Shown here piece by piece: positions 45,288-48,865 of a stretch of DNA of 64,000 bases. Both the position numbers and the translations under genes were made by a program. The stretch lies in contig NZ_CP083757.1 of assembly GCF_020149935.1 (NCBI RefSeq), positions 2,381,501-2,445,500 of the forward strand, given 5' to 3'. The notes under the pieces were generated by a model. It saw only the letters and a program-made list of their open reading frames with translations. It was not told the DNA's origin and did no database searches. Each line of letters begins with the position of its first letter. Position 1 is the first letter of the stretch. The DNA is from Marinilongibacter aquaticus (GTDB lineage Bacteria > Bacteroidota > Bacteroidia > Cytophagales > Spirosomataceae).

Positions 45288-45316
45288 AAAAAAGGGAGAT
45301 TCTTCCTGAATCTCCC
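45288..45316 (-). terminator. Intrinsic terminator after mscL
   Basis: On the minus strand a perfect 9-pair stem (GGGAGATTC / GAATCTCCC) with a 5-base loop is followed by six T. It ends the sigma-to-mscL unit about 30 bases after the mscL stop. Confidence 0.9.
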
Positions 45317-45345
45317 CATTCGTTCATGGCACGAAAAGGCCTTGA

Positions 45346-45747
45346 TTATTTCTTCAACGCGTCTCTGATTTCCGTCAGCAAATCGATTTCGCTCGGGCCA
45401 GATGGAGCTGGTGCAGGTTCTGGCTTGCGGGCTTTGTTGTATGCCTTTACAATAATGAAAAGCACCAAACCCACAATCACCAAATTGATAATCGCATTGA
45501 TCCAAGATCCATAAAGAATCGCATTCTCGGGTTTCGCAATCGTACCATCAGCAGCCAATACGGCCTCATCCAGCACAATTTTCATGTCCGAAAAATCGAT
45601 TCCTCCAGTAAAATGGCCCACAATCGGCATAGCAATATCACTTACGAAACCTTTCACTACCAAGCCAGTTGCACCGGCCAAAATAACCGCCACGGCCAGA
45701 TCGATCACATTCCCGGTCAGGATAAATTCTTTGAATTCTTTAAACAT
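45346..45747 (-). CDS. mscL: Large-conductance mechanosensitive channel MscL
   Basis: A 133-residue inner-membrane channel that opens under high membrane tension to release solutes after a sudden fall in osmolarity. The pore helix is NVIDLAVAVILAGATGLVVKGFVSDIAMPI, and the second helix INAIINLVIVGLVLFIIVKAYN; a Pro-rich linker and a C-terminal coiled helix (IDLLTEIRDALKK) follow. It is the last gene of the unit that also contains an MscS-type channel. Confidence 0.96.
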   Translation of the reverse strand: MFKEFKEFILTGNVIDLAVAVILAGATGLVVKGFVSDIAMPIVGHFTGGIDFSDMKIVLDEAVLAADGTIAKPENAILYGSWINAIINLVIVGLVLFIIVKAYNKARKPEPAPAPSGPSEIDLLTEIRDALKK

Positions 45748-45765
45748 ATTTGTATCGTATTAAGA

Positions 45766-46740
45766 TTAAAAATTCACCAAAAAGCCAACACCCAAACCGC
45801 TGGCAGACTGCCATCCATCTACAATGTCTTTATCGCCAATTCCGATATAGGTAAAGTTCACATTCAAATATTTGTTGATCGCAGCCGTGGCCACAAGGTC
45901 GAGACGATGATCAATCGGTTTATTTTTTACACCCGAGCTTTCTTTCCATGCCTTGAATGCATTGTATCTGAAGCCCAAGTTTACATTCTTCACCACTTCT
46001 TTGTTGAAACCTACGGTAATTTGCGAACCAAATTCGCTGATGTACTTGGCCTGTTTTTCGTCGCCGGTGGCAATGGGCACACCGTAAGCGTAACCGTCTT
46101 CGTTGGCCATAATGTGATCGTTTGCCACGAAAGTCCATTTATTGGCTACTGGGGAAATCTTAAAACTCAAATAATCCAGCGGGCGATAATTGAGACCCGT
46201 AGAGATAGTCAGATAGCCCGGAGCCATAAATGCCGAACCCAGATTACGCGTTCCCGTAGCCTCGGGGTCTTCGCTTTTCAGAAATTGCGAAATGAAGTTG
46301 GCTTCTGCATAAACCAACAACTTATCACTGATCTCTCTCCCGTACATTGAGTTGAGGAACAGTTTGTCGACATTTCGGGCAAAGGCACTTCCTTCCGATT
46401 TCAAAAAGCCAATTTGTCCTTGAATATCGTTCACCCAAGTATTTTTCCCTTTTAATAAAGCATCGTGATGATTGAGCACAAAGCCCAAAGTAGTATTGCC
46501 TTTGGCCCCATCGTTTACCGATTTCCAAGAACTGTTGAAACCCGTCATATTGAAGTTAATACCAAATTGGGTCGATTTATTCCAACCTTCTTTCAAATCT
46601 CCCTTCAAGTCCTTTTTGGAAAATGCATCGCCCACTTTTTTCGAAGCTGCGTCTTTGCTGGGCACTTCCTGAGCAGAAAGCGAAACAGTATAGCCCAAAA
46701 TTAGCATGACCTTAAAAAGGAACTTCATCTTACTTTTCAT
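45766..46740 (-). CDS. DUF3078 outer-membrane protein
   Basis: A 324-residue exported protein of the DUF3078 family, with a signal peptide ending in SLSAQ and a beta-strand-rich body. The conserved part reads GWNKSTQFGINFNMTGFNSSW and NTWVNDIQGQIGFLK, then repeated amphipathic strands down to a final GLGVGFLVNF ending in Phe, typical for outer-membrane barrels. The function is not known. It lies 26 bases after the MscS-type gene and 18 bases before mscL, so all three are likely co-transcribed. The start at 46740 is the first ATG; ATG 46728 is an alternative. Confidence 0.85.
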   Translation of the reverse strand: MKSKMKFLFKVMLILGYTVSLSAQEVPSKDAASKKVGDAFSKKDLKGDLKEGWNKSTQFGINFNMTGFNSSWKSVNDGAKGNTTLGFVLNHHDALLKGKNTWVNDIQGQIGFLKSEGSAFARNVDKLFLNSMYGREISDKLLVYAEANFISQFLKSEDPEATGTRNLGSAFMAPGYLTISTGLNYRPLDYLSFKISPVANKWTFVANDHIMANEDGYAYGVPIATGDEKQAKYISEFGSQITVGFNKEVVKNVNLGFRYNAFKAWKESSGVKNKPIDHRLDLVATAAINKYLNVNFTYIGIGDKDIVDGWQSASGLGVGFLVNF

Positions 46741-46766
46741 ATAAAAATTCAATTTGTTAGTTACTG

Positions 46767-47600
46767 TTATTTTTTATGCAGGATAACTTTATGTGTTTGC
46801 AACACCCGCAATGGGAAAACTGTTTCGGTTTCACCATCATTCAGTACGATACTTGTGCTGTCGATCCGAACGATCTCGCCTTTTACGCCTTCAATCTCTA
46901 CCACTTGTCCCTCTTGATATCGTTTCTTGGAATAAAACGAACTGATTATGTTCAAGAGTATTTCGCGTGATGCAAAGCCATAACCGATGGAAAACGAAAG
47001 GATGACACCGGCAATCAGGATATTAAAACTGCTTTCCAACAAAGCCGTGTTGATTCCTGCCTGACCCAAAGCGGCGATCAATGTCACCACCATGACAAAG
47101 AAGAAAACACCCATACCGATCAATTTGCCCGATTCTACATTGAACGATTTGCAAAGGCCAATCACAAATTGCTTCACGGCTTCGGCCAAGAGCAAGCCCG
47201 CCATTATCATGATTACGGCAACAATAAGTTTGGGAATGAAATCGACGATCATCGCAAACATATTGGAGATGGCCGGAATGCCGAGAGCGTCTGAGGCCGT
47301 CATGAGTATGAAAAGCAAGACAAAATAATACACCACTTTGGCCACTACTTTGCTCAAGACAATCTCCATGCCCAACTTTTTCACGGCATCGATTTCATTG
47401 ATTTTTTCACCCACTCTGTCGATACCGATTCGGGAAAGCACATTGCGAATGGCCACACTCAAGATTTTGGCAATTCCCCAACCGACAATGACGATTACCA
47501 AGGCTCCAAAAAAATCGATGGCGAAGCTACCCACTTGGGTAACAAACCGCTGAAAGGTTTCCACTAAAATTTCCTTAATGTTGGGAAGAATTTTCATCAC
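46767..47600 (-). CDS. Small mechanosensitive channel (MscS family)
   Basis: A 277-residue inner-membrane protein of the MscS superfamily, close to the size of E. coli MscS, with five predicted helices. The last is the pore-lining helix (IAGVILSFSIGYGFASREILLNIISSF), followed by the beta domain YQEGQVVEIEGVKGEIVRIDSTSIVLNDGETETVFP. It differs from E. coli MscS by a longer N-terminal helix set. Its 5' end overlaps the end of the small gene before it by 26 bases, so translation is coupled. Confidence 0.93.
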   Translation of the reverse strand: MMKILPNIKEILVETFQRFVTQVGSFAIDFFGALVIVIVGWGIAKILSVAIRNVLSRIGIDRVGEKINEIDAVKKLGMEIVLSKVVAKVVYYFVLLFILMTASDALGIPAISNMFAMIVDFIPKLIVAVIMIMAGLLLAEAVKQFVIGLCKSFNVESGKLIGMGVFFFVMVVTLIAALGQAGINTALLESSFNILIAGVILSFSIGYGFASREILLNIISSFYSKKRYQEGQVVEIEGVKGEIVRIDSTSIVLNDGETETVFPLRVLQTHKVILHKK

Positions 47601-47790
47601 TGTTGTTGTTCTGTTTGTTGTCTTGCAATTCTTGAAATAATGTAGCTGCGGCGAGAAAAGATTCGGTCAAAAACATATTCACCACCACCATGGTATCTCG
47701 GATCACGTCGATCTCCGAAACGAGCTGTTGCTTAAGCTTGTCGGCATTTTCAAAGCTTTTTTCTTGGTTGAAATCAAAAATACTAGCCAT
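47575..47790 (-). CDS. 71-residue acidic helical protein between sigma factor and MscS channel
   Basis: No known domain recognised. The protein is helical and acidic with a central amphipathic segment (DVIRDTMVVVNMFLTESFLAAATLFQEL) and a hydrophilic, Asn/Ser-rich tail. It is probably real: its ATG shares one base with the sigma stop (TAATG), and its 3' end overlaps the MscS gene by 26 bases. The position directly after a sigma gene is where anti-sigma factors or other partners are often found, but it has no transmembrane segment; that role is inference only. Confidence 0.72.
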   Translation of the reverse strand: MASIFDFNQEKSFENADKLKQQLVSEIDVIRDTMVVVNMFLTESFLAAATLFQELQDNKQNNNSDENSSQH

Positions 47791-48392
47791 TATTTTCTTA
47801 GGATTAGTAATATTTTCAGCAAGATCAATGTGATCATTGCTATATGCTCTAGGTAGAGCTTTTTCATTTTTTCTTTGGTTCTCAACAACCTCATCTTGGT
47901 GGCACTTTCAGAAATCTCGAAGGTCTCTGCAATTTCCTTTATGCTGAAGTTGTCTTGGTATTTCATGAGCAAAATGGCCTTTTCTACGGGAGAAATTTGC
48001 TCCAAGCTTTTCTGAAGCCCTTCTTGTTTCATACTGAGCAATTCGTCTTCGGGCTCGTCTTCCATAAATTCCATAGGATAGTCCAAAGGGTCTTCCTTCA
48101 TTTTCTGCTTTTTCCGCAGGCTATCCATACAGTAATTATAGGTGATGGAGTAAAGCCATGTCGAAAATTTCGCATCTTCTTTGAAGGTCCCAATTTTGGT
48201 GATGACTTTCAAAAAAATATCGTGAGCCAAATCTTCGGCCTTGGCTTGGTCTTTCACAAAAGAAAAGCACTTGCGAAACACCTTATCTGAATAACGCTCG
48301 TATATTTCTTCGAAATAAATGTTTCGTTGGGTCTTCAGATAAATCTTCACCAACTCCTCATCTTTATATTCGCTCAATTCATTCACGTTCAT
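47790..48392 (-). CDS. RNA polymerase sigma factor with hydrophobic C-terminal tail
   Basis: A 200-residue sigma-70 family factor of ECF type. Region 2: EIYERYSDKVFRKCFSFVKD, LAHDIFLKVITKIGTF and FSTWLYSITYNYCMDSLRKKQ; region 4: LLMKYQDNFSIKEIAETFEI then SATKMRLLRTKEKMKKLYLE. After region 4 the protein continues with an 18-residue hydrophobic end (HIAMITLILLKILLILRK), unusual for a sigma factor and long enough for a membrane-inserting helix. It heads a unit with a small protein, an MscS channel, a DUF3078 protein and MscL. Confidence 0.9.
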   Translation of the reverse strand: MNVNELSEYKDEELVKIYLKTQRNIYFEEIYERYSDKVFRKCFSFVKDQAKAEDLAHDIFLKVITKIGTFKEDAKFSTWLYSITYNYCMDSLRKKQKMKEDPLDYPMEFMEDEPEDELLSMKQEGLQKSLEQISPVEKAILLMKYQDNFSIKEIAETFEISESATKMRLLRTKEKMKKLYLEHIAMITLILLKILLILRK

Positions 48393-48556
48393 TTGAGACT
48401 ACGCTTATGTGAAAAAGTAACTCCATATATTATCCTTGTCATTTATTCGTAATATAACTCTAATTTTACACAATCAGGCCTTCGGTCTATTCCAGAGGTA
48501 ACTAATACTAAAGTTAAAATAAAAAGCTCATTCTCAGTATTTGTAATTTAATTGAT

Positions 48557-48865
48557 ATGCAAGCCAAAGAATTATTACTGACTATCCCCCCGAAAATTGC
48601 CCCAAGCGAGCATCCCGACTTGAACACCACCATCCATTTCGATTTGGAAAGCGAAGCTTACAGCTTGGAAATTCGGGATGGCAAAGCCGAATTGAAAGAC
48701 GGCCTACAAGGCGATGCGGAAGTGACGCTGAAAGCCAGCCCCGAAAACTTCGTCAAAATTGCCTCAGGTGAAATGAACCCGATGACCGCCGTGATGTTCG
48801 GAAAATTGAAAGTGAATAATCCTGGAGCCATGATGAAGTATGCGAAACTTCTCGGCTTTATGTAG
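48557..48865 (+). CDS. SCP2 sterol-binding domain protein
   Basis: A 102-residue stand-alone SCP2-fold protein. The core IHFDLESEAYSLEIRDGKAELKDGL and ASPENFVKIASGEMNPMTAVMFGKLKV is typical of this family, which binds lipids in a hydrophobic tunnel. The role in bacteria is not settled. It is divergent from the sigma operon and convergent with nuoB (22 bases between stops). Confidence 0.9.
   Translation: MQAKELLLTIPPKIAPSEHPDLNTTIHFDLESEAYSLEIRDGKAELKDGLQGDAEVTLKASPENFVKIASGEMNPMTAVMFGKLKVNNPGAMMKYAKLLGFM

Follow-up and report, generated by a model that had tools for sequence, protein, structure and literature searches.

Extracytoplasmic function (ECF) sigma factors of the classical RpoE-RseA type are paired with a membrane anti-sigma factor, and in Escherichia coli neither the MscS nor the MscL channel gene is known to lie in a sigma factor operon. 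The described system closest to the operon reported here is SigX-CfrX-CmpX of Pseudomonas. SigX belongs to the sigma group ECF102, designated "ECF regulated by a mechanosensing complex" in PMC8999054, where it is presented as the only studied ECF sigma factor regulated in this way. It is suspected to be under the control of CfrX and CmpX (PMC7641640; PMC8999054); sigX is reported to be up-regulated in hypo-osmolarity, by membrane alteration, and after valinomycin (PMC7641640), and deletion of cmpX is reported to lower sigX transcription (PMC10965496). The present analysis concerns a five-gene operon on the minus strand of a 64,000-nucleotide stretch of the Marinilongibacter aquaticus genome (contig NZ_CP083757.1, positions 2,381,501 to 2,445,500; referred to as the window, with coordinates counted from its first letter), which encodes an ECF sigma factor, a 71-residue acidic protein, an MscS-type channel, a DUF3078 protein, and MscL. 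It is likely that this operon works like SigX-CfrX-CmpX, and the probability that it is a self-regulating envelope-tension module with that mode of action is put at about 0.58, proven membership of the Pseudomonas group not being claimed. The kind of system is known and barely studied; what is new is a variant outside Pseudomonas, and the literature searched contained no description of such an arrangement beyond that genus.

Organization of the Operon

The gene content, strand, junctions, families, and terminal hairpin given in the original prediction, which was made from the sequence without database searches, were confirmed by scans for open reading frames (ORFs), hairpins, and protein families. 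The sigma factor gene (47790..48392, 200 residues; Sigma70_r2, 5e-17; TIGR02937, 104 bits against a cut-off of 43) overlaps by 1 base the gene of the small acidic protein (47575..47790), a candidate anti-sigma factor or adaptor that has an ORF counterpart at the same place phylum-wide. This gene in turn overlaps that of the MscS-type channel, which is of the CmpX kind (46767..47600, 276-277 residues), by 26 bases, or 23 if counted from the ATG. A gap of 26 bases leads to the ATG at 46740 of the DUF3078 gene (45766..46752; PF11276, 4e-10, 40.3 bits against a cut-off of 25), and a further 18 bases separate the latter from mscL (45346..45747, 133 residues; PF01741, 3e-38; TIGR00220, 108 bits against a cut-off of 71), which encodes an ordinary MscL like that of E. 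coli. The DUF3078 protein probably has a signal peptide, as judged by eye, and is probably located in the outer membrane. A terminator-like hairpin with a 10-pair stem followed by TTTTT (45293..45317) was found by pattern scan and starts 28 bases 3' of mscL; because the scan of an 8-kb stretch gave 12 such sites, against 9.1 expected in shuffles, the call depends on the strength and place of this hairpin. A second terminator-like hairpin with TTTTT is present on the same strand where the DUF3078 gene ends (45784-45804), before mscL, and could act as a damper of mscL expression.

Conservation of the Module

A search of 101 genomes of the window's family, the Spirosomataceae, with the small protein gave matches in 52; given how short and divergent the protein is, the other 49 may also carry one. 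Regions of about 10 kb were read around 20 of the 52 matches, representing 14 genera. The order sigma factor, small protein, MscS-type channel, and DUF3078 protein is retained in 20/20 of these loci, and mscL comes next in 19 (within 100 bases in 18 and at 671 bases in one), being absent only from L047. The outside flanks vary by genus: scp2/nuoB are found in some, while in other genera the unit follows genes that by eye resemble those for ribosomal proteins, often with ftsW downstream. These changing neighbors show that the unit stays together, and the loss of gene order that the original prediction had named as one possible refutation was not observed. That the stretch is a real operon, whose genes are regulated together and include a sigma factor dedicated to them, is thus well supported, because the order is conserved and survived the synteny comparison, the genes overlap or abut, and an ECF-type promoter site precedes the sigma factor gene.

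In a sample of 395 genomes of the phylum, the profile of the small protein alone matched only 10 genomes, six of them weakly, and the profiles of the channel and the sigma factor were therefore used for the survey. The channel profile had matches in 41 genomes at 1e-10; strong matches, defined as those below 1e-40, numbered 20 in 18 genomes, so that the module is patchy at this threshold. A strong sigma factor match lies upstream on the same strand in every one of the 20, at a spacing of 193-455 bases in 19 and of 1245 bases in one, and all 18 loci read, one per genome, have an ORF of 59-97 residues between sigma factor and channel. Among 12 weaker and shorter channel matches that were read (L104-L115), 11 have no adjoining sigma factor gene. 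The remaining one, L109 (genome G463), is also from the window's phylum and pairs a CmpX-like channel with a weak sigma factor match (4e-21); its channel branches near Pseudomonas CmpX (support 91/70), and it is a possible link between the modules of the phylum and the Pseudomonas group. In phylogenetic trees, the 34 module sigma factors of the window's phylum group in a single clade (97/88), as do the 34 module channels (100/97), with the same inner split in both.

The original prediction also held that MscS and MscL are together in one unit with a dedicated sigma factor. The conservation of one unit led by a sigma factor upholds that claim in part, and the pairing of the two channels proved not to belong to the core. 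In 14 loci from other families of the phylum, a DUF3078 gene follows the channel in five (L090, weakly, L091, L092, L094, and L096, by tblastn; Pfam confirms the domain in the four loci scanned), and mscL was found in none of the 14 within about 1.5 kb past the channel, a distance that in L094 and L096 leaves little or no room after DUF3078. As far as gene neighborhoods indicate, the core of the module is sigma factor, small protein, and MscS-type channel, and MscL and DUF3078 are lineage additions.

Two copies of the sigma factor-channel pair were seen in each of the genomes G137 and G278. Close relatives of the module sigma factor also occur away from any strong channel match in G004 (at five places besides L119), G008, G402, and G418, apparently through duplication of the sigma factor gene unaccompanied by the other module genes. 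No module was seen in plasmid and phage records, among whose matches the loci L075 and L316 were those examined; L075, a Pseudoalteromonas channel, has no sigma factor gene adjoining it. Viral contigs gave no match to the module. Two short contigs from human feces labeled "Bacteriophage sp." (MT836389.1 and MT836807.1) contain an MscS-like stretch at 32-35% identity and may be bacterial in origin.

Structure-Function Relationships of the Core Proteins

The channel matches the Pfam model MS_channel_1st_1 (PF05552 type) at 2e-18, and its profile aligns residues 116-261, extending to 271 in the best matches, with the pore and beta domain of MscS structures (6e-9 to 1e-5), including those of E. 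coli MscS (Protein Data Bank 2oau and 6vyk). In a structural model computed from the window protein and 18 CmpX rows, five long helices are accompanied by shorter ones and a beta domain (mean predicted local distance difference test score, pLDDT, 76; predicted template modeling score 0.52), and in a Foldseek search with this model MscS ranked top (probability 1.00, E 1e-5, template modeling score about 0.3). Compared with E. coli MscS, the channel has additional helices of the PF05552 type at its N terminus and lacks the large C-terminal alpha-beta cage, its chain of 276 residues extending no further than the beta domain. PF00924, the Pfam model of the beta domain, has no match to the window channel but does match CmpX. 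A profile of window-type channels detects CmpX in all five Pseudomonas loci tried (3e-47 to 1e-49), and the identity to the window protein is 27-29% over the length. On these sequence comparisons, the channel is a CmpX-type member of the MscS superfamily, and it may serve as the sensor of the system.

When the 24 sigma factor matches of the window's genome were compared with the model of Pseudomonas SigX (NF007222, PRK09640), the window sigma factor scored best at 99-99.7 bits, the next reaching 75. It ends in a hydrophobic tail (residues 180-200, encoded by 47793..47855) that is kept across 20/20 family loci, where its length is about 17-20 residues and the lysine at its center is invariant; no such tail was seen in the 14 loci from other families. 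The tail is a possible membrane anchor or docking helix. The small protein is acidic (12 Asp and Glu against 5 Lys and Arg, isoelectric point 4.3), and a single-sequence model predicts one long helix (pLDDT 90), which indicates helical tendency rather than a fold. No Pfam or NCBIfam family, the anti-sigma families included, was matched above cut-off. The small proteins of the window's family and those of other families are related (hhalign 96%, E 1.5e-9). As in operons of the RpoE-RseA type, a candidate partner gene overlaps the ECF sigma factor gene, but this partner resembles no anti-sigma family and has no transmembrane stretch evident by eye. The small protein could act as the anti-sigma factor.

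Comparison with SigX-CfrX-CmpX

The reference set of Pseudomonas-type loci consists of the best 80 of 567 matches, one of them titled Paucimonas; the fixed first motifs of cfrX, CmpX, and OprF are present in 80, 75, and 78 of the 80, respectively, and the gene order is cfrX-cmpX-sigX-oprF in the six loci inspected. Like this system, the window operon combines an ECF sigma factor with a small protein without recognized domain and a CmpX-type channel of nearly equal length (276 versus 274 residues), has the gene of a probable outer-membrane protein alongside, and is preceded by a GTKAC..GTC promoter site. Unlike it, the operon has DUF3078 in the place of OprF, no OprF-like gene being found among the ORFs beside it, contains MscL in addition, and encodes a sigma factor with a hydrophobic tail; moreover, none of its five genes resembles cmaX, which is of the CorA type. 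The operon is not assigned to the SigX-CfrX-CmpX group, because its sigma factor scores below the SigX cut-off, OprF is not its neighbor, and homology to CfrX was not detected.

The linkage of channel and sigma factor has a parallel in the Pseudomonadales, where 23 of 194 genomes have a CmpX-like match, 13 of them at ≥36% identity. The 12 close CmpX loci that were read all have an adjoining sigma factor gene, with a small upstream ORF listed in 11, whereas none of 11 remote CmpX-like matches has a sigma factor gene next to it.

The Promoter Motif

A conserved ECF-type promoter, overlooked in the earlier reading, lies before the sigma factor gene on the minus strand, with the form GTTAC-N17-GTC (48397..48421). 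Four bases separate its GTC from the ATG of the sigma factor gene, and the mRNA is consequently predicted to be leaderless or nearly so. The general form GTKAC-N15..19-GTC precedes the sigma factor gene in 18/20 family loci, against 0.7% in shuffled sequence, the distance to the conserved DEELV codons being nearly constant at 30-40 bases, and in 9/14 loci of other families, against 1%. It was found before none of the 23 other ECF matches of the window's genome and none of 12 sigma factor genes without a channel (shuffled 1%). Six sigma factor genes without a channel (L138, L140, L141, and L143-L145) have another shared upstream pattern, TGTAACC...GTCGTC, which by eye is near the module motif but distinct from it. 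GTKAC..GTC also stands before cfrX in 80/80 of the Pseudomonas loci, a closely related set, and in 11/11 further loci of the Pseudomonadales; the spacer is N18 in 86 of these 91. It is probable that the window operon is transcribed from this promoter by its own sigma factor.

Proposed Mechanism and Alternative Explanations

In the mechanism that is proposed, the sigma factor would transcribe its own operon from the conserved GTTAC-N17-GTC site. In the resting cell, the small protein would keep the sigma factor at the membrane, probably by way of the CmpX-like channel, and in the window's family the hydrophobic tail of the sigma factor may aid this retention. A change in tension or fluidity would alter the shape of the channel and release the sigma factor, which would then raise the levels of itself, the small protein as a brake, the MscS-type channel, the DUF3078 envelope protein, and, in the window's family, MscL, so that sensing and pressure-release capacity would be gained together. 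The original prediction of a membrane-tension or hypo-osmotic response module is in this respect supported as to a role in membrane tension or the envelope, by analogy with SigX-CfrX-CmpX; all of the evidence for a hypo-osmotic or fluidity signal comes from Pseudomonas, and the signal here may be of that type.

Several points weigh against reading the operon as a self-regulating envelope-tension module. The gene order is sigma factor-small protein-channel here and small protein-channel-sigma factor in Pseudomonas; SigX and CmpX form clades of their own, and neither tree resolves a sister position to the module clades. With 99-99.7 bits, the sigma factor falls far short of the 194 bits required by the SigX equivalog model. 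No homology between the small protein and CfrX was detected with either a narrow or a diverse CfrX set (hhalign 0.1-0.6%, against up to 1.7% for shuffles), although with such short and divergent proteins this is a weak test. The promoter motif is absent from 5/14 loci of other families and 2/20 family loci, and in the 80 Pseudomonas loci there is none in the 110 bases before oprF. The literature searched contained no experiment on this operon, and in the papers on the Pseudomonas system an anti-sigma role for the small protein and a sensing role for the channel appear as proposals, unproven (PMC7641640; PMC8999054). Finally, the transcription start of cfrX was mapped by rapid amplification of cDNA ends at -208, not at the motif, according to PMC7641640, which also mentions an unproven start with a 13-nucleotide leader. 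With regard to the latter, in L289 and L290, where the cfrX frame has the published length of 84 codons, GTC ends 20 bases before the first codon; a 13-nucleotide leader would thus put the start some 7 bases beyond GTC, a distance expected of ECF promoters. If the first codon of the 84-codon frame is the start codon of the paper, cfrX would start at the motif.

An alternative is an operon of effectors only. The channel would then pass no signal to the sigma factor, whose control would come from its own abundance or from a different signal, and the channels and the DUF3078 protein would be mere targets carried in its operon. MscL and DUF3078 do enter and leave the operon between families, as targets do, and autoregulation by itself would account for the promoter. 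The core behaves otherwise: the MscS-type gene adjoins the sigma factor gene in 20/20 strong matches and CmpX does so in 12/12 close loci, that is, in two distant groups and in permuted order. So constant a pairing is more in keeping with a sensor or regulator than with a target that can be exchanged, and the effector-only explanation is considered unlikely. Less probable again is the suggestion that the small protein is a chaperone, assembly factor, or subunit of the channel, rather than an anti-sigma factor, and that the sigma factor has no protein partner. Its gene overlaps or abuts both neighbors, it is predicted to be all helix, and it has neither a detectable relation to CfrX nor a Pfam or NCBIfam family, all of which would suit such a role; however, it follows the sigma factor gene by -4 to +5 bases in 11/20 family loci, a usual sign of translation coupled to that of the sigma factor. 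That the genes are chance neighbors under separate regulation can practically be dismissed, since their order is kept across genera despite changing flanks and the linkage of sigma factor and channel is phylum-wide; this explanation was rejected on synteny, and no point in its support was found.

A broader proposal, which we advance tentatively as somewhat less probable than its converse, is that the self-regulating envelope-tension module represents a widespread ECF signaling class of at least two phyla, in which an MscS-type channel would be the tension sensor and a fast-evolving small protein would couple it to the sigma factor. In the window's family, the sigma factor would also be held at the membrane by its tail, and the output would comprise both emergency valves, MscS and MscL. 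The occurrence in a distant lineage of the same kinds of parts, in another order and with another outer-membrane partner, suggests that the essential parts are the sigma factor, the small protein, and the CmpX-type channel, and that OprF, CmaX, DUF3078, and MscL are local ones. The shared promoter type provides a handle for a reporter and makes channel-switched transcription testable.

Candidate Targets and Neighboring Genes

The genome was scanned with three forms of the motif. The pattern GTTACTTN{14,15}GTC gave 7 matches, two at promoter places (44 for the reversed pattern used as control); GTTACN{16,17}GTCNNA gave 22, three outside ORFs (control 112); and GTKACN{16,17}GTCTNA gave 11, seven outside ORFs (control 27). 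Because the reversed patterns matched more often, the number of matches alone is no evidence for a regulon, and it is place and conservation that count. The seven sites outside ORFs for the third pattern precede the operon itself and the genes of a BON-LysM protein, a secreted-looking protein of 193 residues without a family, a DUF3575 protein, and a DUF1361 protein, with two further sites that are doubtful. The BON-LysM gene, identified with Pfam, begins 46 nucleotides after the motif, and its product is one that we take to resemble the potassium-binding Kbp/YgaU. GTKAC..GTCTNA precedes this gene in 14 of the best 30 of 87 loci, the window's genome included (L257, L260, L263, L266-L270, L274, L276, L280-L282, and L285), against an expectation from shuffling of 0.0003 per sequence. 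The gene stays a candidate target, as the motif is not present in the two relatives from its own genus.

A divergent gene for an SCP-2 domain protein lies on the plus strand at 48557-48865 and has its upstream region in common with the sigma factor gene, a layout that is the same in several relatives.

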